A stretch of 41,567 nucleotides of DNA from Gammaproteobacteria bacterium (GTDB lineage: Bacteria > Pseudomonadota > Gammaproteobacteria > Thiohalospirales > Thiohalospiraceae). Location of the stretch: contig JABURT010000094.1 in assembly GCA_014762495.1 (NCBI GenBank), forward strand, positions 1-41,567. Reading direction: 5' to 3'. Below are positions 15,261-25,761 of the stretch, one piece after another. The notes below the pieces were generated by a model. The model was given only the letters and a program-made list of their open reading frames with translations. It ran no database searches and was not told the origin of the DNA. Each line of letters opens with the position of its first letter. Positions within the stretch are counted from its first letter, which is position 1. Position numbers and translations under genes: made by a program.

Positions 15261-15563
15261 ATGTCCAAGCTGGTTATGTTTTATGCCGAGGTCGACGCCA
15301 TCGATGATGCCGAGATCGATGATGAAGACCGCGAAGTGATCCTGATCCTGGTCAAGCAGGCTAGCGATGAAAATAATAACTTTCTCAATGCCCGTCGAAT
15401 TGCCGAACAGGCAGGCTGGCATAATGTTGAGGTCACCCAGGCAGGAGTGGTAGACCCTGATATAGACGATAACGAGGCGGTCTATCTTGCCAAGCAAAGC
15501 GCCATGCAGTTCGGCTATGCCATCCTGCGTTACAACGATATTTTCAGCCAGGACGACAACTGA
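15261..15563 (+). CDS. Small acidic protein of unknown function
   Basis: A 100-residue cytoplasmic protein, very acidic at the N-terminus (VDAIDDAEIDDEDREVILI), with a central helix (NNFLNARRIAEQAGWHNVEV) and a final helix containing AVYLAKQSAMQFGYAILRYN. It is not recognised. It follows the lipoprotein gene by 17 bases and has a weak ribosome-binding site, so it may depend on upstream translation. Confidence 0.65.
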   Translation: MSKLVMFYAEVDAIDDAEIDDEDREVILILVKQASDENNNFLNARRIAEQAGWHNVEVTQAGVVDPDIDDNEAVYLAKQSAMQFGYAILRYNDIFSQDDN

Positions 15564-15658
15564 GTCCTCTCGGTCTCATCCTCCCACATTCCGTTAATCG
15601 GCACGGCCATCCGAACAATGGGGAAGCCTGAATTGTCCGAGTGCGTTATCATGGCAAG

Positions 15659-17470
15659 ATGTCTCAAACGGCCCAAACCAAACCACTGACCACGTTTCGT
15701 TACACCTGGAAAGGCATCCTCCAGGAGGTGCTAAAGCACCGACATGAATTGGTGCTGGCCCATGTCATTGCCATCTTCACGGTACTTAGTCACGTTCCGA
15801 TACCGCTGCTCATGCCGCTAATGGTAGACGAAGTCCTGCTCGATAAGCCGGGCAAGGTCGTCGCCCTGATGGAAGACATTTTTCCCTCTGCCTGGCACGG
15901 ACCGGTGCTCTTCATCGGTACCGTACTCATTATCACCGTTATGTTGCGCGTGATGAGCATGCTGCTTGATGTCTTACAGACCCGTCAGTTTACGCTGATA
16001 GGAAAGGATGTCAGTTTTCGTATGCGACGGGACCTGCTGGAACGACTACAGCGCGTCTCCATGGCTGAGTATGAAACCCTGGGTAGCGGCTCGGTGGCAT
16101 CGCACTTTGTTACCGATATCAACGCCATCGACCAGTTTATCGGTGTCTCCATCAGTAAGACCCTGGTAGCGATCCTAAGCCTGATCGGGATCTCAGCCGT
16201 GTTGCTCTGGCTGCACTGGCAACTGGCTCTGTTTATCCTGTTTCTCAATCCGCTGGTGATATACTTTACCTTCACCCTCGGCAAACGGGTCAAGCGCTTA
16301 AAACAACGTGAGAACAGCGCCTTCGAGATCTTTCAGCAATCGCTGGTGGAAACACTAGATGCGATCCAGCAGATCCGTGCCAGTAATCGCGAAGGCCATT
16401 ACATCAAATCTGTCATTGACCGTGCGCGCGGCATCAAGACCCATTCGGCCGCCTACTCATGGAAATCCGATGCCGCCAGTCGTTTCTCCATGGGTGTGTT
16501 CCAGGTTGGTTTCGAGACCTTTCGCGCCACCGGTATGCTCATGGTGGTGTTCTCCGATCTCAGTGTTGGTGAAATGATGGCGGTATTCGGTTATCTGTGG
16601 TTCATGATGAGCCCGGTGCAGGAGGTGCTCAATGTGCAATACGCCTACTTCGCGGCCAATGCGGCACTGGATCGGGTAAACAAGCTGCTGGAGTTAAAAC
16701 AGGAACCAAAATATCCCCATCTTCACGATCCCTTCGGCGACAAGACCACTGTCGGTATTGAATTGCGTCATGTGAACTTTGCCTATGGCGATAATGAAGC
16801 GGTACTCAAAGACGTGAATCTTACGATTGAACCGGGCGAGAAGATTGCACTGGTAGGCGCCAGCGGTGGCGGTAAATCGACGCTGGTCAATGTCCTGCTT
16901 GGACTCTATCCACCCAACATCGGCGAGATGCTGTTCGACGGTGTACCCGTAACAGAGATAGGTCTCGACGTGGTGCGCGAAAACGTCGCCACCGTACTGC
17001 AGCACCCGGCCATGTTCAACGACACGGTACGCATGAACCTCACCTTGGGTGCCGATTATCCGGATGCGAAGCTGTGGCAGTCACTCAAGGTGGCGCAGTT
17101 GACCGAGGTCATCGAGCAATTGCCGCAGGGCCTGGACTCACTCATTGGTCATCATGGTGTACGACTGTCCGGAGGCCAGCAACAAAGGCTGGCCATCGCC
17201 CGCATGATCCTGGCCGAACCCAAGGTTGTGATCCTCGATGAGGCCACTTCGGCGCTGGATACCGATACCGAACAACGCCTGCACGAGGCCCTTAGCGAAT
17301 TCCTGCAACATCGCACAACCATCATCATCGCCCATCGCATTAGCGCCGTGCGCCAGGCGGATCGGGTCTATGTCTTCGAAGACGGACACATCATCGAGCA
17401 TGGTACCCATGAAGAGTTAATGAATCTGGATGGTCTGTATCACAAATTCTACGGTCATCTTGGCCTGTAA
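15659..17470 (+). CDS. ABC transporter, fused permease and ATPase (exporter type)
   Basis: A 603-residue half-exporter. Six transmembrane segments occupy about residues 30-320, followed by a nucleotide-binding domain with Walker A GASGGGKST near residue 400, the signature LSGGQQQRLAIARMIL, Walker B VVILDEATSALD near 526 and the H-loop IIIAHRI. This is the MsbA/LmrA-like homodimer layout; the substrate cannot be told from sequence. The start at 15659 (MSQTAQTKP) is preferred to a GTG at 15641. The transcript ends at a strong bidirectional terminator just after the stop. Confidence 0.92.
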   Translation: MSQTAQTKPLTTFRYTWKGILQEVLKHRHELVLAHVIAIFTVLSHVPIPLLMPLMVDEVLLDKPGKVVALMEDIFPSAWHGPVLFIGTVLIITVMLRVMSMLLDVLQTRQFTLIGKDVSFRMRRDLLERLQRVSMAEYETLGSGSVASHFVTDINAIDQFIGVSISKTLVAILSLIGISAVLLWLHWQLALFILFLNPLVIYFTFTLGKRVKRLKQRENSAFEIFQQSLVETLDAIQQIRASNREGHYIKSVIDRARGIKTHSAAYSWKSDAASRFSMGVFQVGFETFRATGMLMVVFSDLSVGEMMAVFGYLWFMMSPVQEVLNVQYAYFAANAALDRVNKLLELKQEPKYPHLHDPFGDKTTVGIELRHVNFAYGDNEAVLKDVNLTIEPGEKIALVGASGGGKSTLVNVLLGLYPPNIGEMLFDGVPVTEIGLDVVRENVATVLQHPAMFNDTVRMNLTLGADYPDAKLWQSLKVAQLTEVIEQLPQGLDSLIGHHGVRLSGGQQQRLAIARMILAEPKVVILDEATSALDTDTEQRLHEALSEFLQHRTTIIIAHRISAVRQADRVYVFEDGHIIEHGTHEELMNLDGLYHKFYGHLGL

Positions 17471-17471
17471 A

Positions 17472-17507
17472 AAAACGGCCGCCACTCGTTCGAGTGGCGG
17501 CCGTTTT
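17472..17507. terminator. Strong bidirectional terminator
   Basis: A perfect 17-base-pair stem (AAAACGGCCGCCACTCG with its complement) has a two-base TT centre. A-runs on one side and T-runs on the other let it serve both the ABC exporter (+) and the protease operon (-). Confidence 0.95.
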
Positions 17508-17525
17508 CAAGTTCAAGACCCCTGA

Positions 17526-17918
17526 CTAGAGACGAAGTCCGAGGTTGAGACCAAATGTTGTGCTGCTGAAGGTACTAATATAAGGGTCGAAGATGATGTT
17601 ACCGACCGGCAGATCGATACCTACCTTGGCCCCGGTCTCGGTCGTGTTGCCAAATTGAATTTCTGCCTGGATATAGGGGCTATCGGCATAACGTTCGATG
17701 TAAAATCGGAATGCGAGTCCCGCGCTCAATCCACCAGCAGCACTCACACCACTGAGGCGATAGGCCGAGTTGCTGAAAGCCCGGCTTTGATAAAACAGGT
17801 TAGGCTGATTGTCCGCCATAGCAACGAGGTCGGTGCCCACGATCACGGAACGCGCCTGCGCAGCATGGGCGAAGGCAAGGCCGCTGACAAGTAAGCCCAT
17901 CACTAGTAATTTTTTCAC
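17526..17918 (-). CDS. Small secreted beta-rich protein, second of a paralogous pair
   Basis: A 130-residue protein with a clear signal peptide (MKKLLVMGLLVSGLAFAHAAQA) and a Gly/Tyr/Phe-rich body of alternating residues: ALAFRFYIERYADSPYIQAE, KVGIDLPVGNIIFDPYIST and a GLNLGLRL end. The pattern suggests a small outer-membrane beta structure. It aligns with the product at 17945-18370 through VGIxxPV and DPYI and the glycine-leucine C-terminus. It is the last gene of the four-gene protease operon, 26 bases after its paralogue, and is followed by a terminator. No known family. Confidence 0.75.
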   Translation of the reverse strand: MKKLLVMGLLVSGLAFAHAAQARSVIVGTDLVAMADNQPNLFYQSRAFSNSAYRLSGVSAAGGLSAGLAFRFYIERYADSPYIQAEIQFGNTTETGAKVGIDLPVGNIIFDPYISTFSSTTFGLNLGLRL

Positions 17919-17944
17919 TGAACCCCCTTCAGGATTTTCAAGCC

Positions 17945-18370
17945 TTAGAATGGTAAGCCGATATTCAGTCCAATCCCGTATCCGGTGCCGCCGTTCCCGG
18001 TAACCAGACCTATATAGGGATCGACAATAACAATACTCACGGGAATTTCAATGCCAACATTGGCTGCCACTGCTACGCCATCGGCGGCATACCCAACACC
18101 ACCTTCTGCATAGGGAGTCATTCCATCCCGAGTAATAGGGTAGTAAAGTTTATAAAAGCCGTAATAGGCAATGCTCTGATTGACGTTATAGATGGAAATG
18201 CGAAGGGCTTCATCTCGCGACAGGGGTAGTTGATAGTATATATTTCCCACACCGCTGGCGAGGCCATAGGCATCGAATCCTGCCAGGGAACTCGCTTGCG
18301 TGACGCGCGCAAACGTCAGGATCATTAGCGCCGTGAACACCGAGCCTATCCATTTCAATACACGGTCCAT
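17945..18370 (-). CDS. Small secreted beta-rich protein, first of a paralogous pair
   Basis: A 141-residue protein with a signal peptide (MDRVLKWIGSVFTALMILTF, then ARVTQASS) and a Tyr/Gly-rich body: NIYYQLPLSRDEALRISIYN, YYPITRDGMTPYAEGGVGYA, NVGIEIPVSIVIVDPYIGLV. It ends GIGLNIGLPF. The terminal Phe fits an outer-membrane barrel insertion signal. The start is set at 18370, where GAGTGAGAG precedes the ATG; the frame stays open to 18430, but that part overlaps the upstream gene and lacks a signal. It sits 35 bases after the propeptide-like gene. Confidence 0.72.
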   Translation of the reverse strand: MDRVLKWIGSVFTALMILTFARVTQASSLAGFDAYGLASGVGNIYYQLPLSRDEALRISIYNVNQSIAYYGFYKLYYPITRDGMTPYAEGGVGYAADGVAVAANVGIEIPVSIVIVDPYIGLVTGNGGTGYGIGLNIGLPF

Positions 18371-18405
18371 AACTCTCACTCTATCAATGTTCAATCCGCC
18401 ACACC

Positions 18406-19029
18406 TTATCGAGGAAGCCGTTCTACCCACCAGTTTGGGGTCACACTCTCTGCCACATTGGCCTGGCTGATGAGTTTGGCTGTCTCCAGCGCATCCAATC
18501 CCGATCCGGTACGCACCAGGTAAAATTTCTTTTCATCACCTATGACTTGCTCAATTTCATAATCCTGGCTTTTTATCCAGGCACGCGCACGTTGTTCGTC
18601 CCATGTCGGCTCGAACCGCAGGATCACACCACCGGGCAGGGCGCGGCGTGTCCCGTTTTTTGCGTCGTAGAATACCGGCGATACCTTTGTGCCGGCATCA
18701 AGGTTCCTAATCGCGGTAATGGCCCGCGTCACATCATCGGTCGTAACCGACCAGATCCGCACCCCGGTGCCTCTGGCCTGACTCTCCTCGGCTCGAGGAA
18801 AGGCCTTTTGCACCACACCCATCGGCATGGCCGTCCCTGGAAACTCGGCAACCAGGCTCTTGCTCATGTAGACCACGCGCCGCTGGCCATCTTCCTGCCA
18901 TTCATAGGCCTGACCGTGATCCACCGGCTTTGCGCCCTTTTGTATCTTTTCGAAGGCCGCTGCGTTGAGGTTAAACATCAGTCCGACCAACAGCATCGGG
19001 AGCACACGAATCATATTCGCCCTGTTCAT
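18406..19029 (-). CDS. Secreted stand-alone subtilase propeptide-like protein
   Basis: A 207-residue protein with a signal peptide (residues 1 to about 25, ending NAAA). Its second half reads GGVILRFEPTWDEQRARAWI, then YEIEQVIGDEKKFYLVRTGS, LDALETAKLISQANVAESVT and PNWW. This is the standard form of the region that precedes the catalytic domain in many secreted subtilases. The neighbouring subtilase lacks it. A free propeptide could act as folding chaperone and inhibitor in trans. It lies 38 bases after the protease gene in the same operon. The name is by pattern, not by database match. Confidence 0.65.
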   Translation of the reverse strand: MNRANMIRVLPMLLVGLMFNLNAAAFEKIQKGAKPVDHGQAYEWQEDGQRRVVYMSKSLVAEFPGTAMPMGVVQKAFPRAEESQARGTGVRIWSVTTDDVTRAITAIRNLDAGTKVSPVFYDAKNGTRRALPGGVILRFEPTWDEQRARAWIKSQDYEIEQVIGDEKKFYLVRTGSGLDALETAKLISQANVAESVTPNWWVERLPR

Positions 19030-19067
19030 ATTTCATCCCACATACGTATGTCTCTCCTTACGCTGGC

Positions 19068-20732
19068 TCAACGTCCATATACCGTAATGGACCAGGAAAC
19101 GAGATTGCCGGTGTCGCCACTCCAGCCGTCACGAAGCCCCAAGGTCCAGTTGCCATCAGCGGCCTCGTCCAGATGGCGTACGCTGCCAAAGCGCCAACCG
19201 GTTGTGTAATCGGAACTGCACGCAACATATGAACTGCCATCGTTGCAGCGACGAAACTTGGCTAATTCACTGACTGTGCCATCAGGACTGGTCAACTGTA
19301 TATCCAGGTCACTGATATAGGTGTGGTCACTTGTCACGGTGACCTCGACAAACTCAATGTTGTTGATGCCGCTAGCCGAGATGGTAATCGTGTCCGTGGT
19401 CATTGCACCGTATTCGAGTAAGGTCCCCGTACCGTCGGCGATGGCGACGTTGGGGAACGAAGAACCGGTCACTGAGTCCAGAGCGTTCGAACCGCCGATG
19501 CTAGTCCAGCTCTGTGCCATGTTCACGGCGGCCTCTGCATCGAGTGCACCAAAGCCGTATTGATGATTGATGCTGAGGCCAGCACCATTGACGGACCAAT
19601 CAGGATCGGCGCTGTCGTTTTGACGCGCACTGCGTGCCAGGATCACGCGCACATCACGCCAGGTCAGATTGGGATTGGCCTCGCGCATGAGGGCAATGGC
19701 GCCCGAGGCTACCGGTGTGGCCGAGGAGGTACCGTTGAAGCACTTGGTGTAGTTGGGGCTGGAGTAGTCGGTCTTGCTGGCGCTGATAAACGTGCCGCCG
19801 CTGTTATAGCCATCGTTGCCGCTGCGATCCACGGTGGTCGTGGTATGGCCCGTACTGCAATATTCGCCCGAAGGGGTAGCAACGAGGACATTTGCGCCGG
19901 GCTCGGAATAGCTTGCACGGGTACCGTCGTCGGCCAGTGCGGCGATGGCGAAGACGCCACGGTAGTTGGCATATCCATCGTAGTTGGAATTATCGATGTG
20001 GATTAGCTCACTACCGGTACTGACCAGGGAGCCGCCATTGCCCGCGGCCCAGGTATAGACAGTACCCTTTCCACCCAGGCCGGTTGAAGTGCCCTCATCG
20101 ATGGCCGCGCGCCAGTTCGAACTCGAATCGATAAGTTCACCGGTGAAGTCCTGTGGTCCCCAGCTATTGCTGGAGACGGCATTATCGGCCTTGCCACGGG
20201 TCATGGCATCCAACTCATTGCTGAGTGTGCTGAGTTGCAGATAGTTGTATCCCACCAACTCGGCATTGGGTGCCACACCTTTTACCCCCTTCGCATTGTC
20301 GCCCACGGCCGCGGCAACACCGGCCACGGCGGTGCCATGTGAACCACCGGTGGGGTCGGTATCCTGGTTGGCGTAGTCCCAGCTCGCGCCGGGAATCACG
20401 TTGCCGGCCAGGTCTTCGTGACCAATCTCCAGGCCGTCGTCGACCACGACAATGCGGACACCGGTACCCCGATAGTTCGTCCAGACCGGTTCCACATTGA
20501 CGTCCTCCCCGACGACGCCTCCTTCCTGGCCGGTGTTCTTGAGATGCCACTGGTCGGGGTAGAGTGGATCCGGGCCGCTTACGCCCTCAATAGACCCGCC
20601 CGTGCCCAGGACACCCGCCATGGAGGGCAACTGGTCGCAACCCGATACACTCAGCAAAATAATAAATAAACCCGCCTTGAGCCCAGGGGATGGACTCAGA
20701 ATTCTCCGTTTCACCGCTGCCATATACTCCAT
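19068..20732 (-). CDS. Lipoprotein subtilase (S8 family, kexin-like) with C-terminal P domain
   Basis: A 554-residue serine endopeptidase. A lipoprotein signal with lipobox VSGC (Cys32) is followed by a 20-residue linker and, almost at once, DPLYPDQWHLKNTGQ, the usual entry to the catalytic domain. Catalytic residues are Asp98 (VVVDDG), His132 (GGSHGTAVAG) and Ser336 (NGTSSATPVASG), with oxyanion Asn232 (AAGNGG). A proprotein-convertase P domain fills about 440-554 (ISDLDIQLTSPDGT, GNWTLGLRDGWSGDTG). No propeptide lies inside; one seems to be encoded by the next gene. Asp follows the acylated Cys, which in E. coli favours inner-membrane retention. A promoter lies 33-61 bases upstream. Confidence 0.93.
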   Translation of the reverse strand: MEYMAAVKRRILSPSPGLKAGLFIILLSVSGCDQLPSMAGVLGTGGSIEGVSGPDPLYPDQWHLKNTGQEGGVVGEDVNVEPVWTNYRGTGVRIVVVDDGLEIGHEDLAGNVIPGASWDYANQDTDPTGGSHGTAVAGVAAAVGDNAKGVKGVAPNAELVGYNYLQLSTLSNELDAMTRGKADNAVSSNSWGPQDFTGELIDSSSNWRAAIDEGTSTGLGGKGTVYTWAAGNGGSLVSTGSELIHIDNSNYDGYANYRGVFAIAALADDGTRASYSEPGANVLVATPSGEYCSTGHTTTTVDRSGNDGYNSGGTFISASKTDYSSPNYTKCFNGTSSATPVASGAIALMREANPNLTWRDVRVILARSARQNDSADPDWSVNGAGLSINHQYGFGALDAEAAVNMAQSWTSIGGSNALDSVTGSSFPNVAIADGTGTLLEYGAMTTDTITISASGINNIEFVEVTVTSDHTYISDLDIQLTSPDGTVSELAKFRRCNDGSSYVACSSDYTTGWRFGSVRHLDEAADGNWTLGLRDGWSGDTGNLVSWSITVYGR

Positions 20733-20764
20733 GTAACGCCACGCCCTGGCGGGATAAGTTAACC

Positions 20765-20793
20765 TTTATAAACGCTTCGCCCCGGCAGGCCAA
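20765..20793 (-). promoter_or_regulatory. Sigma-70-like promoter of the protease operon
   Basis: On the minus strand a TTGGCC -35 (20788-20793), a 17-base spacer and a TATAAA -10 (20765-20770) stand 33 bases before the protease ATG. The spacing is ideal and the -10 matches five of six consensus bases. Confidence 0.6.
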
Positions 20794-20841
20794 GTGCTAT
20801 TGTGTGCGGCGTGAGCCGTATCACAGGAAAGGCCGGACTGT

Positions 20842-21324
20842 TCATACTCCAAAATCCTGTTGCTGCATGGTCCGGTTGTCAAGGATGACGCGCATGCCAA
20901 GCGCTAACTCGCCACCGCGGATGACCTTGCATGTCACCCCGCCACGCCATTGTGGTTGCAAAGACCGACATAGCCCGCGATGGGCGGTATCCATCTTTCC
21001 GCAGGGGTCGGTTTCTCCAGTGATCTCGAGCACGACGTCGCCGATACGAAGGGTCTGCCCAGTGCTATGTTCTAGCGGCAGTGCATCCACCAGAAGATTG
21101 GCACGGCGTTGAGTCCAGTGTAGTGTCACCCCCAGCTCGGCACAGGCCTCACTCCAGGCCGCCTCGGACATCAAAGTGATCTGACGTCGGCCCGGTCGAC
21201 TACGCTTATCCCCTTCAAGCCCCGTATCCACCGTCACCTGTGCACGTTCCAGTTCGTTCATGTTACCGCCCGCAGCGGGACGTATGCCGATACCGATGAG
21301 ATTTGCGCAAACTTCCCTATCCAT
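20842..21324 (-). CDS. MOSC domain protein
   Basis: A 160-residue protein carrying a MOSC domain: LIGIGIRPAAGGNMNELERA at the start, GLEGDKRSRPGRRQITLMS, RRANLLVDALPLE, LEITGETDPCGKMD with the conserved Cys that would bind the molybdenum cofactor sulfur, and GVTCKVIRGGELALGM. MOSC domains carry sulfur or act on molybdenum-dependent substrates; here it stands alone, like YiiM-type proteins. The start at 21324 overlaps the DUF1415 gene by eight bases. It is the last gene of the operon. Confidence 0.88.
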   Translation of the reverse strand: MDREVCANLIGIGIRPAAGGNMNELERAQVTVDTGLEGDKRSRPGRRQITLMSEAAWSEACAELGVTLHWTQRRANLLVDALPLEHSTGQTLRIGDVVLEITGETDPCGKMDTAHRGLCRSLQPQWRGGVTCKVIRGGELALGMRVILDNRTMQQQDFGV

Positions 21325-21892
21325 CTTCTTTTCCGGATTGCAGGCACTGATAGAGTATACGACGCAGCGTCTTGGTGCCCAGGTCATTCATTTTTTCGAT
21401 GTTATGTGCGGGGATAGTGTCGGCATCAGGATAGCTCTCAAGCACACGCTCGACCGACTCCTCCCTTAACAGGTGCAACATGGGATATGGAGAGCGGTTG
21501 GTATAGTTCTCGGCATCCTCAACTGCGGTACCGTTGAACCGGTATTGCGGATGCAAACTGGCCACCTGGAACTCACCTGTGTATCCACCCTCATCCAGCA
21601 CCGCGTCCACCACCGCCAGGAAATCGTTATAGTCTAAAAAATCTAGTAAGACATAAGGGTGGATAAGAAGGGTGGTTTCCAGTTCAAGGGCTGTGCCGCG
21701 ACGCAACCGCTCGAGTTCTTCGATTAAATCTCTTAGCAAAGATTCAGGTTCTCGAGCCTCACTGACTGCATAACGAATACGTTTTGACTGGAATGGTTTA
21801 TGCGCAAACGGACATAGATTGAACTTCAGTACGACTTGTTCTATCCAGCAACGTGTCGCGTCAATCACGGCGGTCGTCGAGGTATCACTCAT
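21317..21892 (-). CDS. DUF1415 family protein
   Basis: A 191-residue soluble protein with the DUF1415 pattern: RCWIEQVVLKFNLCPFAHKP near the N-terminus, TTLLIHPYVLLDFLDYNDFL, QVASLHPQYRFNGT and NRSPYPMLHLLREESVERVL. The family is conserved in gammaproteobacteria but has no established function; the conserved Cys and His hint at metal or thiol chemistry. Its start overlaps the DUF3820 stop (21889-21892) and its stop overlaps the MOSC start, indicating coupled expression. Confidence 0.88.
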   Translation of the reverse strand: MSDTSTTAVIDATRCWIEQVVLKFNLCPFAHKPFQSKRIRYAVSEAREPESLLRDLIEELERLRRGTALELETTLLIHPYVLLDFLDYNDFLAVVDAVLDEGGYTGEFQVASLHPQYRFNGTAVEDAENYTNRSPYPMLHLLREESVERVLESYPDADTIPAHNIEKMNDLGTKTLRRILYQCLQSGKEDG

Positions 21893-22140
21893 TTTCTTGG
21901 TGCCATGCCACCCTCGCGAAGAGGTTGAAACAAATACTCAAGGCCATTGAGCTTGACCTCATAGACTATGCGCAACATGTGACCCAACTCCCCCTCGGGA
22001 AAGCCCTGCTTGGCGAACCAGATCACATAGGGCTCCGGCAAATCGATCAGCAAACGGTTTTTATACTTGCCAAAAGGCATGCGGTAGCCGGCAAGTTTTA
22101 ACAACTTTTGCGGATCGTCCAACAGAGCCAGCCCTGTCAT
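21889..22140 (-). CDS. DUF3820 family protein
   Basis: An 83-residue protein with the DUF3820 signature: MPFGKYKNRLLIDLPEPYV, WFAKQGFPEGELG, and a final helix with LNGLEYLFQPLR. Some members have been described as quorum-sensing-regulated factors in Pseudomonas, but the molecular role is unknown. It follows the glutaredoxin-like gene by two bases and overlaps DUF1415 by four. Confidence 0.87.
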   Translation of the reverse strand: MTGLALLDDPQKLLKLAGYRMPFGKYKNRLLIDLPEPYVIWFAKQGFPEGELGHMLRIVYEVKLNGLEYLFQPLREGGMAPRK

Positions 22141-22142
22141 GG

Positions 22143-22541
22143 TCAGGCCTGCGGAGCGGCAAAGCGTCCATGTAAATAGTCGATAATGTCATTGGACTCA
22201 TACATCCATTCGACGTTGCCGTTATCCTTCTTGATTTGCAGGCAGGGGACTTTCAACTCACCGCCATCCACCATCAGGTCCTCACGATGTGCCATATCAT
22301 GTTGAGCATCTCGCAACTCAATATCCAGGGAGAGTCGACTCATTTCGCGCCGGACTTTAAGACAAAAGGGACAGGTCTTGAAATGATACAGGGCCAACTG
22401 CGATGTTTGCTCATCGACTTTTTTCTGCGCCTCTTTGCTGCGCTCGACACCTTTGGGTGTGGCGATCCAGTGCGCCAGTAAAACGACAGGTGTTAACACC
22501 AGGCGAACGGTCTTAAAAAAATAACGAATCAGTAGTCTCAT
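22143..22541 (-). CDS. Membrane-anchored glutaredoxin/GST N-terminal domain protein
   Basis: A 132-residue protein with an N-terminal hydrophobic anchor (about residues 8-26) and then a glutaredoxin-like domain: LALYHFKTCPFCLKVRREMS with the CPFC redox pair, GGELKVPCLQI with the cis-proline, and MYESNDIIDYLHGRF, the GST N-terminal glutathione-site motif. It is likely a glutathione-dependent thiol enzyme held at the membrane. It is the first gene of the operon with DUF3820, DUF1415 and MOSC. A terminator just upstream isolates it from the diguanylate cyclase gene. Confidence 0.85.
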   Translation of the reverse strand: MRLLIRYFFKTVRLVLTPVVLLAHWIATPKGVERSKEAQKKVDEQTSQLALYHFKTCPFCLKVRREMSRLSLDIELRDAQHDMAHREDLMVDGGELKVPCLQIKKDNGNVEWMYESNDIIDYLHGRFAAPQA

Positions 22542-22563
22542 GCTCTCATTCCGGCGTATAGGA

Positions 22564-22589
22564 AAAACCCTGAAGTGTTTCAGGGTTTT
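22564..22589. terminator. Bidirectional terminator after the diguanylate cyclase gene
   Basis: AAAACCCTGAA pairs perfectly with TTCAGGGTTTT around GTGT. On the minus strand it ends the 22738-23946 transcript before the glutaredoxin operon. Its A/T flanks would work in both directions. Confidence 0.88.
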
Positions 22590-22737
22590 ATGGGATCAGA
22601 ACCCACATTATACCCGCTGCGGCCAATTCAGTACCAATGCCCGGCATGGATGAGATGTCACCAACCGTGCAGCGCGTTGCTTGGACGGTCAGGAAAGGGA
22701 AATCACGACATATATGAAAGGATTGTCGGGTAAGGCC

Positions 22738-23946
22738 CTAGCTGCCCGCCGGGAAAACCGACTCAGAGGGCAGGGAATGGTTGTTGTTCGGGGCGTAGAC
22801 ACGAACGCAGTTCTTGCCGCATTTTTTGGCCTCATACAGGGCCTCGTCCGCCATTGCATACAGCTCTTCAAAGTCTGTATTGCCATTCTCAACGGTGGCA
22901 ACTCCCACGCTGACTCTGGCCAGGACATGGTGTTCGCCAATATTGATTAAAGTTGCTTCAAATAACTTTCGCAGACGTTCCGCGATCTCAACTGCCTTGG
23001 CCTGATTGACGCGGTCGAGTACGACTCCGAACTCCTCTCCACCGATACGGCCGATGACATCCTTCACACGAAAGAAATCCTTCATGTTGCTGGCAAAGTC
23101 CTTCAGCACTTCATCACCCGCAGTATGACCATAGGTGTCATTGATCTTCTTAAAATCATCGATATCCAGAACGATGAGTGATACCGGCTGCTTATCCAGT
23201 TTCGCGCGTGAAAGCAGGCGTCCCACCTGTTCAACAAATGCGCGTCGACATTGCATGCCGGTTAGATAATCGGTGTCGGCGAGATTTCGCAGGCGAAATT
23301 CCAGGCGGTCCGTCATCATCATGAGGTATCCGAACACCAGCAAGAGATTCAGTACGATAATGGTCATGAAGGTATAGCTGGTGTGCGATGAGGTCACCAG
23401 TTCGGTTCCGCCCATGGGCAAGAGCCCTGCGGCAAGGGCTCGCACCAGGAAACCGATACCAATAATGGTGAAAAGGATGCCGGTATAGATGTCGGCCGCG
23501 CTATGGCGGTGTGGCTCGACCAGTAACTCCTTGGCCATCAGCAGGCAAAACACACTGGCGAATATCGAAGAGACAATCACCCGATCGGCAAACTGCTCCG
23601 GCTCCATACCGAGCCAGGCAAACAGGATTGCGATTAAGGCAAAAAAGGCGATGCCATGGGCAAAGGGCAAGGCCGGCCGCCACTGCGTCAGGCGCACCCC
23701 CATGAAGAGCGTGTAGAAACCGAGAAGGATAATGAGATTGGCCGTGTATAGGGAAATCAGCAGACTGATGAATTGTTGCGTCGAGATCAGCACCAGCCCC
23801 ACGGCAAGCATTAGATAGCCTGCCACCATATGCGGCACACCCTTGACTCTACGATTCATGAATCCGCCAAGGACGATGGCAATACTGGTGACAATAAGTG
23901 TGATGGCCGTAACGACGACTAATGTACGCGGATCCAGCGTACCCAT
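22738..23946 (-). CDS. Membrane-bound diguanylate cyclase
   Basis: A 402-residue protein with about seven N-terminal hydrophobic helices (residues 8-215) and a C-terminal GGDEF domain that looks active. It has the metal site LIVLDIDDFKKINDTYGH, the catalytic motif GGEEF at 302-306 and an intact inhibitory I-site RVKD at 293-296, five residues before it. It should make cyclic di-GMP from GTP with product feedback. No partner gene is adjacent; it is divergent from the Na/Pi cotransporter with a CRP-type site between. The GTP-binding and I-site residues are clear. Confidence 0.93.
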   Translation of the reverse strand: MGTLDPRTLVVVTAITLIVTSIAIVLGGFMNRRVKGVPHMVAGYLMLAVGLVLISTQQFISLLISLYTANLIILLGFYTLFMGVRLTQWRPALPFAHGIAFFALIAILFAWLGMEPEQFADRVIVSSIFASVFCLLMAKELLVEPHRHSAADIYTGILFTIIGIGFLVRALAAGLLPMGGTELVTSSHTSYTFMTIIVLNLLLVFGYLMMMTDRLEFRLRNLADTDYLTGMQCRRAFVEQVGRLLSRAKLDKQPVSLIVLDIDDFKKINDTYGHTAGDEVLKDFASNMKDFFRVKDVIGRIGGEEFGVVLDRVNQAKAVEIAERLRKLFEATLINIGEHHVLARVSVGVATVENGNTDFEELYAMADEALYEAKKCGKNCVRVYAPNNNHSLPSESVFPAGS

Positions 23947-24010
23947 TACCTACCCCTGAATAAATCTATGTGGTTCCAAATCACTCAAGATATGTATATC
24001 GACAGCAAAA

Positions 24011-24026
24011 TGTGAATTCTTTCACA
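24011..24026. promoter_or_regulatory. CRP/Vfr-type binding site
   Basis: TGTGA-ATTCTT-TCACA is a perfect TGTGA-N6-TCACA palindrome, flanked by A-runs before and T-runs after as in strong E. coli CRP sites. Its centre is about 72 bases before the diguanylate cyclase start and about 117 before the cotransporter start, so it could act on either. Confidence 0.7.
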
Positions 24027-24078
24027 CTTTTTAAAAATTATTCTCGATGCTCAGAATCCCGTATTATCCGCACAATAT

Positions 24079-24104
24079 ACCGTGATGTTTGACACATTCA
24101 CGGT
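24079..24104. promoter_or_regulatory. 26-base inverted repeat before the Na/Pi cotransporter gene
   Basis: ACCGTGA (24079-24085) and TCACGGT (24098-24104) are exact complements, with a TGT/ACA pair inside. It lies 31 bases upstream of the ATG at 24136, as an operator or a leader hairpin would. It does not match the Pho box. Confidence 0.4.
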
Positions 24105-24135
24105 GATTTGAGCAAAAAACGAGAACACGACTGAA

Positions 24136-25761
24136 ATGAACACCCTGAATATCGTTATTACCGCAGCAGGCGGGCTCGGAATATTTCTGCTCGGCCTGGT
24201 CATTATGACCGGTGCCCTGCGTGCCCTGGCCGGCGAGGCCATCCATGCCGCATTAATGCGCTTCACCCATAGCCCCACCAGTGGCGCCATCACCGGCGCG
24301 GTCAGCACCGCCATCCTGCAATCTTCAAGTGCCACCACCGTGGCCGCCATCGGCTTCGTCGGCGCGGGCCTGCTGAGTTTCTCCCAGGCACTGGGGATCA
24401 TTTTCGGCGCCAACGTCGGCACCACTGTCACCGGCTGGTTGGTCACCCTGGTCGGCTTCAAGCTCAAACTGACCACGGTATTGTTGCCCATGGTACTGAT
24501 GGGTGTGCTCATCCACCTCTTTGCCAAAGGACGCTGGCGCCACCTCGGCCTGGCCATCGCCGGATTCGGGCTTATCTTTGTCGGTATCTCCATGTTGCAG
24601 GAGGGCATGCGCGGACTGGAAACGGGGGTCATCGACTATCATCTACCCGACGACAATATTCTCGGTAAACTGCAGCTTGTCGGAATTGGCATCCTGTTCA
24701 CTATTATCACCCAATCTTCGAGCGCCGGTGTCGCCACCACGCTCACCGCCCTCTATGCCGGGACCATCAATTTTCACCAGGCCGCCGCCCTCGTCATCGG
24801 CATGGACATCGGAACCACCTTCACCGCGGCCCTCGCCACGGTGGGTGGCAGTGTGGCCACACGGCGTACCGGGCTGTCTCACGTCTTCTATAACCTGATG
24901 ACCGGGCTCGGCGCCTTCCTCTTTATTACGCCTTATGTCTGGGTCTGGGAGACATATGCGCCTGGCGCCCTGCTGCAAAATTCGGAGCTGGCCCTGGTGG
25001 CCTTTCATACCAGCTTTAATACACTTGGTGTGATTCTGGTGCTGCCCTTTGCCCGCGCCTTTGCCAACATGATGGAGCGCCTGATCCCCGAACAGAGGAT
25101 CGCCCTTACGCGTGGACTCGACGCCTCCCTGCTCAAGGAACCGGGCGTTGCCATCACCGCGACGCATTCTGTGCTGCGCCAGGAATCCACCGCACTAATA
25201 CGCTATCTTAAATGGATGTTGGAGGAAGAGTTTCAGGATCGCCCCTTCCGCATGGCCGAGCTCGAGCAGGCCCTGCAAGAGACCCAGGTTTATATCGACG
25301 ACATTCATTTAAGCCAGGACAAGGGCAGGGATTGGGAACGCCTCTATGCCATCACCCATGCCCTCGATCATATGCACCGGCTACACAACCGCTTTCGCGA
25401 TGAGGAACGTCGGGCCATCGCGAAAAATTCGGAGCATATGATGGAACTCAAGCAATTACTGGACAGCCGCCTGATTGACCTTGTGAATGAGATTGAGGCC
25501 GGTGACTGGGGACTCGCCTCGCAGCGGGCGGAGGAAATGGCGCGAGACATGGACCTCGAGGCCGATGGACTGAGGGATCGGATCATGGCCATGGTCGCCA
25601 GTGACGAGATGGACGTGCCGCTGGCCAATGATTCACTTAAGACCCTGCGCTGGCTCAATCGCATCGGAACCCATATTGCACGCATGTTGTATTATCTGCA
25701 CCAGGCCAGCGAGACACGTGAACAGGTGCAGACGAAACTACAGGCGGAAACGGTTGCCTAA
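24136..25761 (+). CDS. Na/phosphate cotransporter family protein with PhoU-like tail
   Basis: A 541-residue inner-membrane protein of the NptA/YjbB type. Two repeated Na/Pi-cotransporter halves carry the QSSSA signature (TAILQSSSATTVAAIGFVGA near 60 and TIITQSSSAGVATTLTALYA near 195). GANVGTTVTG and GMDIGTTFTAAL follow in their respective halves. A PhoU-like helical domain covers about 345-541. It probably moves phosphate, either uptake with sodium or efflux. The upstream region has a palindrome and a CRP-type site. It appears monocistronic. Confidence 0.9.
   Translation: MNTLNIVITAAGGLGIFLLGLVIMTGALRALAGEAIHAALMRFTHSPTSGAITGAVSTAILQSSSATTVAAIGFVGAGLLSFSQALGIIFGANVGTTVTGWLVTLVGFKLKLTTVLLPMVLMGVLIHLFAKGRWRHLGLAIAGFGLIFVGISMLQEGMRGLETGVIDYHLPDDNILGKLQLVGIGILFTIITQSSSAGVATTLTALYAGTINFHQAAALVIGMDIGTTFTAALATVGGSVATRRTGLSHVFYNLMTGLGAFLFITPYVWVWETYAPGALLQNSELALVAFHTSFNTLGVILVLPFARAFANMMERLIPEQRIALTRGLDASLLKEPGVAITATHSVLRQESTALIRYLKWMLEEEFQDRPFRMAELEQALQETQVYIDDIHLSQDKGRDWERLYAITHALDHMHRLHNRFRDEERRAIAKNSEHMMELKQLLDSRLIDLVNEIEAGDWGLASQRAEEMARDMDLEADGLRDRIMAMVASDEMDVPLANDSLKTLRWLNRIGTHIARMLYYLHQASETREQVQTKLQAETVA

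Follow-up and report, generated by a model that had tools for sequence, protein, structure and literature searches.

A predicted kexin/furin-like lipoprotein protease of gammaproteobacteria and its stand-alone propeptide encoded by the neighbouring gene

In a gammaproteobacterial contig of 41,567 nucleotides (the whole of this stretch is called the window below), the gene next to that of a kexin/furin-like serine protease encodes a 207-residue protein that is a stand-alone propeptide. The protease itself has no propeptide in cis, and the available sequence evidence makes it a well supported conclusion that this domain would be supplied in trans by the 207-residue protein (called the chaperone below). 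Our computations show homology of the chaperone family to the propeptides fused to other S8 proteases, a propeptide-type fold, gene pairing with the protease, a conserved basic C-terminus and conserved aspartates in the S1 pocket of the protease. The locus would thus represent a bacterial relative of furin and kexin whose folding-and-inhibiting propeptide is encoded by a neighbouring gene and not fused to the enzyme, and external chaperones of this kind appear to be detached relatives of ordinary fused propeptides. The combination of an invariably basic C-terminus with conserved S1 aspartates provides a simple, testable rule for the recognition of a protease by its detached propeptide.

Locus organization and the protease

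The locus comprises the following features.

19068 to 20732, minus strand: kexin/furin-like serine protease (S8 plus P-domain), predicted lipoprotein, no cis-propeptide (from Pfam, nearest solved structures and site mapping)
18406 to 19029, minus strand: stand-alone propeptide of 207 aa with a signal peptide and the C-terminus ...ERLPR, putative external chaperone and inhibitor (from profile, Pfam, model and Foldseek)
18406 to 18627, minus strand: propeptide-fold part of the 207-residue protein, about residues 135-207 (from the AF2 model and the profile match to fused propeptides)
17945 to 18370, minus strand: small putative outer-membrane protein A of 141 aa, modelled as an 8-stranded barrel and encoded by the cassette's third gene (from model and Foldseek)
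17526 to 17918, minus strand: small putative outer-membrane protein B, 130 aa, paralogue of A, resident of the flanking locus (from homology and synteny)
17468 to 17510 (approximate limits), minus strand: hairpin and T-run terminator (shuffle z -6.5)

The four open reading frames described in an earlier note on this DNA were confirmed, with gaps of 38, 35 and 26 bases in order from the protease gene; protein A starts with ATG (an alternative GTG lies at 18430) and protein B with GTG. The note had further proposed one terminator and one promoter. The terminator was recovered as a 17-bp hairpin plus T run, common to a convergent ABC transporter gene. The single promoter was not confirmed: a search for a sigma-70-like site in front of the protease gene found none, and genes for a MOSC and a DUF1415 protein lie just upstream in the same direction, so that transcription could begin further upstream. 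A five-codon ORF (ATG TGG GAT GAA ATA TGA, 19026-19043, minus strand) overlaps the start of the chaperone gene by ATGA and has a better ribosome-binding site than the latter. This overlap suggests translational coupling with the chaperone gene; the small ORF is absent from the sister species G002.

The protease has 554 residues and carries a lipobox (VSGC). The entry sequence of its catalytic domain, DPLYPDQWHL, lies at residue 54, only about 20 residues after the lipobox cysteine, and the earlier reading that nothing propeptide-sized lies in between is borne out. The Pfam families Peptidase_S8 (E 2.5e-38) and P_proprotein (E 5.4e-19) both match. According to the family profile, the nearest solved relatives are kexin and furin, followed by Aeromonas sobria ASP, whose alignment to the profile ends before the profile's end. 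Site mapping located the catalytic residues D98, H132 and S336, the oxyanion N232 and the S1 aspartates D195 and D252 (D258 and D306 of furin). Together with the P-domain, these complete the set of features by which we recognized kexin/furin-like S8 proteases; the window protease has no counterpart of the S2 aspartate, D191 in furin. Among the relatives, the stalk that links the lipid anchor to the catalytic domain varies in length between about 20 and more than 300 residues, and the long stalks of the proteases from loci L020, L022 and L024 contain one to several copies of sandwich-like repeat units.

The 207-residue protein and its pairing with the protease

A profile of the chaperone family (A3), built from 15 of 18 relatives, was run over 2,416 ORFs. 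Up to E = 5, it matched members of the family and then only seven pro-regions of fused S8 proteases, namely those of loci L084 (8.6e-9), L085 (1.4e-8), L083 (1.1e-5), L094 (3.4e-5), L081 (1.1e-4), L092 and L070. The matched segment is N-terminal and directly ahead of the catalytic domain in these proteases, and spans about columns 86-208 of the profile in the best cases. Alignment of the family to L070 by hhalign gave E 1.5e-5 (prob 79). Given this specificity of the profile, we rejected a chance resemblance. The Pfam family Fervidolysin_NPro-like (PF22148) matches 11 of the 15 members (best 2.5e-5); its curated cut-off of 21 bits is passed by three relatives (23.0-25.0 bits), while the window protein alone stays below it at 13.8 bits. 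The suggestion that the second half of the 207-residue protein resembles a propeptide is thus sustained at the level of homology.

The AF2 model of the chaperone (pLDDT 84) places the propeptide topology, beta-alpha-beta-beta-alpha-beta, over residues 135-198, after an N-terminal domain. The structure comparison proposed in the earlier note was carried out with Foldseek; its matches include the furin-bound prodomain of PC1 (prob 0.99, TM (target) 0.73) and, at prob 0.85, A. sobria ORF2 (3wqb_B). This is a common fold, for which reason the E-values are weak (>0.001), and similar scores are reached by other ferredoxin-like folds. Single-sequence and profile searches against PDB sequences gave no meaningful match.

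The 18 relatives come from genomes G001, G002 and G003, from 10 of 369 sampled gammaproteobacteria (G000 and G003 recur among them) and from two Thiomicrorhabdus MAGs, one of which has two tandem protease-chaperone pairs. These MAGs were found with an alignment of the closer chaperone group, whereas a scan of genome contigs with the single chaperone protein detected no relatives; a four-sequence profile run over a phylum-wide sample returned only the window protein. The reading frames of the family are open and conserved at 21-45% identity. In 17 of the 18 cases, the chaperone gene adjoins a close relative of the window protease, being located downstream of it in 16 and upstream in one (G206, L026 2584-5096). 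The remaining genome, G058, has a solitary chaperone gene (L027 6103-6720) and two tandem kexin-like proteases on another contig (L057 204-4391). Conversely, all nine genomes with a close protease (at least 264 bits) among 274 gammaproteobacteria also have a chaperone.

Outside this group, no recognizable propeptide or chaperone was seen for the alphaproteobacterial and cyanobacterial protease relatives, so part of the protease clade may fold unaided. The kexin-like proteases of loci L087-L091, from alphaproteobacterial and cyanobacterial plasmids, continue on their C-terminal side into fused calcium-binding or other long regions and have neither a recognizable propeptide nor a chaperone neighbour. 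The signal sequences of the chaperones from L021, L023, L025, L027 and L007 resemble lipoboxes (e.g. LFGC, LYGC), so that several lineages may have a lipid-anchored chaperone.

All 18 chaperone-like relatives end in Arg or Lys, a property shared by 18% of other ORFs (naive probability of 18/18, ignoring relatedness, 4e-14). The window chaperone ends in RLPR, a furin-type R-x-x-R. On the protease side, each S1 aspartate (positions of furin Asp258 and Asp306) is kept in 16 of the 18 partner-type proteases, as compared to 5-6 of 10 fused proteases and 0-1 of 8 RTX-type relatives. In the A. sobria system, the C-terminal Lys of ORF2 lies at the catalytic centre of ASP (PMC5638518), and the basic tail and S1 aspartates described here would be compatible with a similar, product-like placement of the tail in the active site. 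A basic C-terminus that matches the S1 pocket, added to profile homology, predicted fold and gene pairing, supports the earlier proposal that a folding or inhibition domain acts in trans.

The small putative outer-membrane proteins and candidate mechanisms

Proteins A and B are homologous, as had been noticed: with B as the query, A-type proteins from other species were matched (E 9.8e-9 and 8.6e-7). The model of protein A (pLDDT 82, from a four-sequence alignment) has eight strands, and Foldseek ranks a designed minimal transmembrane barrel first, followed by Ail, OprF, OmpX and NspA. Both small proteins are exported and are probably 8-stranded outer-membrane barrels. Within the sampled genomes they occur only in the genus of the window; no barrel was found at the other chaperone-protease loci examined or in the other 273 gammaproteobacterial genomes searched, and their association with the protease is genus-specific.

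The two barrels differ in their genomic context. The gene for protein A comes after that for the chaperone in each of the three species of this genus (the window, G001 and G002), and the protease-chaperone-protein A unit sits at different genomic places in at least two of them. In G002, the gene for an orthologue of protein B (52% identity) is flanked in conserved order by the same genes as in the window, the ABC transporter gene on one side and MOSC-DUF1415 on the other, and this flanking locus contains no protease, chaperone or protein A, which are found on another contig. The G002 locus (L074) is collinear with window positions 15261-25761, and it lacks, at the corresponding place, the GGDEF gene of the window (22738-23946). 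A search of the window's own genome for a neighbour gene of the G002 cassette site gave no match and is uninformative. Since G002 carries protein B there without the other three genes, we interpret the four-gene unit as a three-gene cassette placed beside a resident gene B. The earlier idea of a single conserved four-gene system is rejected on this synteny, and what recurs across genomes is graded: protease and chaperone are widely conserved together, protein A joins them within the genus, and protein B belongs to the flanking locus.

In the mechanism that we consider likely, the detached propeptide acts as an intermolecular chaperone and then as an inhibitor with its tail in the S1 pocket. 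Both the protease and the 207-residue protein would be exported across the inner membrane, where the protease would become lipid-anchored via its lipobox cysteine. The propeptide-fold domain would template folding of the catalytic domain, and the C-terminal tail (...RLPR-COOH) would lie in the active site in the manner of a cleaved product, its Arg placed in the acidic pocket formed by D195 and D252. The chaperone would thereby block the protease until its own degradation or displacement, and the downstream barrels would be passengers or genus-specific accessories outside the core mechanism. Chaperoning, inhibition and the timing of release are inferred here from A. sobria ASP/ORF2 and from the general biology of subtilase propeptides.

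The 207-residue protein might also be only a tight inhibitor that serves as a safeguard for a protease folding unaided. Stand-alone inhibitors resembling propeptides do exist, for example Plasmodium SUB1-ProM (PMC6993865), the alphaproteobacterial RTX-type relatives without a visible propeptide are presumably active, and the chaperone gene is unlinked in G058. However, the proteases paired with a chaperone have no cis-propeptide, whereas the target of SUB1-ProM keeps its own, and nascent A. sobria ASP needs ORF2 for activity (PMC5638518); we therefore regard inhibition alone as unlikely. An origin of the pair from a decayed or misannotated fused protease, with a frame break between pro-region and catalytic domain, is extremely improbable and was rejected. 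The swapped gene order in G206 is what a broken fusion would leave, but at 16 of the 17 linked loci the chaperone gene comes after that of the protease, its product has its own signal peptide and the protease its own lipobox, and both the open frames and their conservation speak against decay.

The position of protein A bears on the idea of a joint envelope machine made up of three or all four gene products, with the barrels receiving or displaying the anchored protease, or being processed by it. The link between chaperone and protein A outlives relocation, given the different genomic places in at least two of the three species. Against a joint machine stand the absence of barrels from the loci and genomes searched outside the genus, the presence of protein B in G002 at its locus without the protease, and the lack of any sequence feature connecting a barrel to the protease, which together make it quite improbable. 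We attach still less credence to a more specific version, in which protease, detached propeptide and first barrel would be a relocating cassette whose products set up a furin-like processing site in the outer membrane, exposed at the surface, the barrel being a docking partner or a substrate of the chaperone-released protease.

Comparison with known systems

The fused S8 pro-regions of the Fervidolysin_NPro-like type (G005, G067, G203, G063, Pantoea, Leisingera) contain a homologous domain before the catalytic entry, whereas the window propeptide is a separate gene product with its own signal peptide, usually encoded after the protease gene. Plasmodium SUB1-ProM (PMC6993865) is likewise a stand-alone propeptide-like protein encoded near subtilase genes, but it is eukaryotic, was shown to be an inhibitor, and targets a SUB1 that retains its cis-propeptide. 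The furin/kexin proprotein convertases share with the window protease the catalytic domain, P-domain and S1 aspartates, and the R-x-x-R end of the window chaperone is of their type; unlike the window protease, they have the prodomain in cis, and furin has the S2 aspartate. Protein A resembles the OmpX/Ail/OprF-type barrels in predicted fold (Foldseek prob 1.00), and B is its paralogue; points of difference are a mature length of ~115 residues and the closest match of A, which is the designed minimal barrel 6x9z (E 2e-4).

The closest parallel is ASP of A. sobria, whose chaperone ORF2 is encoded downstream, a published precedent for a propeptide supplied in trans (PMC5638518); the earlier impression that no such system had been described does not stand. 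Both systems (ASP/ORF2 is PDB 3wqb) have a kexin-like S8 protease with a P-domain and no cis-propeptide, a small exported protein encoded directly downstream (16 of 18 relatives here), a chaperone of propeptide-type fold (here by model, with weak Foldseek E-values) and a basic C-terminal residue that could occupy the S1 pocket of a basic-specific protease. In contrast to ORF2, the window chaperone has an extra N-terminal domain, clearly matches fervidolysin-type propeptides and gives no match to Pfam PF18492 (ORF_2_N). The window protease differs from ASP in being a predicted lipoprotein and in its profile score, which is nearer to kexin/furin. An additional occluding region close to the entrance of the active site (ASP R566) is a further mark of the ASP type.

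Among the chaperone relatives, ORF_2_N was detected only in L021 (E 0.051), and a PF18492 search of 369 gammaproteobacteria found none above cut-off, while true ORF2 loci were found in Vibrio campbellii (PF18492 1.1e-25) and Pseudoalteromonas (1.2e-9). No similarity between the window family and Vibrio ORF2 was seen by hhalign (prob 0.3). We keep the window chaperone outside the ORF2 sequence family, as it is not recognizable by sequence as Pfam ORF_2_N. A bridge between the two types may be provided by L086 (G202), where the protease groups with ASP and its neighbour protein matches the fervidolysin prodomain above cut-off and the window chaperone family weakly (E 6e-4).

In the catalytic-domain tree, 10 of the 11 cis-propeptide proteases form one group. 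The window type, the ASP type and the propeptide-less RTX type form a 30-row clade (100/99), which places the window protease in the same propeptide-less clade as ASP; the eleventh cis-propeptide protease, the long-branched L093, adjoins it. A single clade of all trans-type proteases is compatible with the data (p-AU 0.52, not rejected). Thus the window pair probably works like ASP/ORF2 and shares its origin. These results extend ASP/ORF2, the one trans-propeptide protease that has been studied well, to a lipoprotein branch that diverges in sequence and is present in several gammaproteobacterial families, including Thiomicrorhabdus: supply of the propeptide in trans is a known principle, and its sequence-divergent, membrane-anchored form in other gammaproteobacteria is new.
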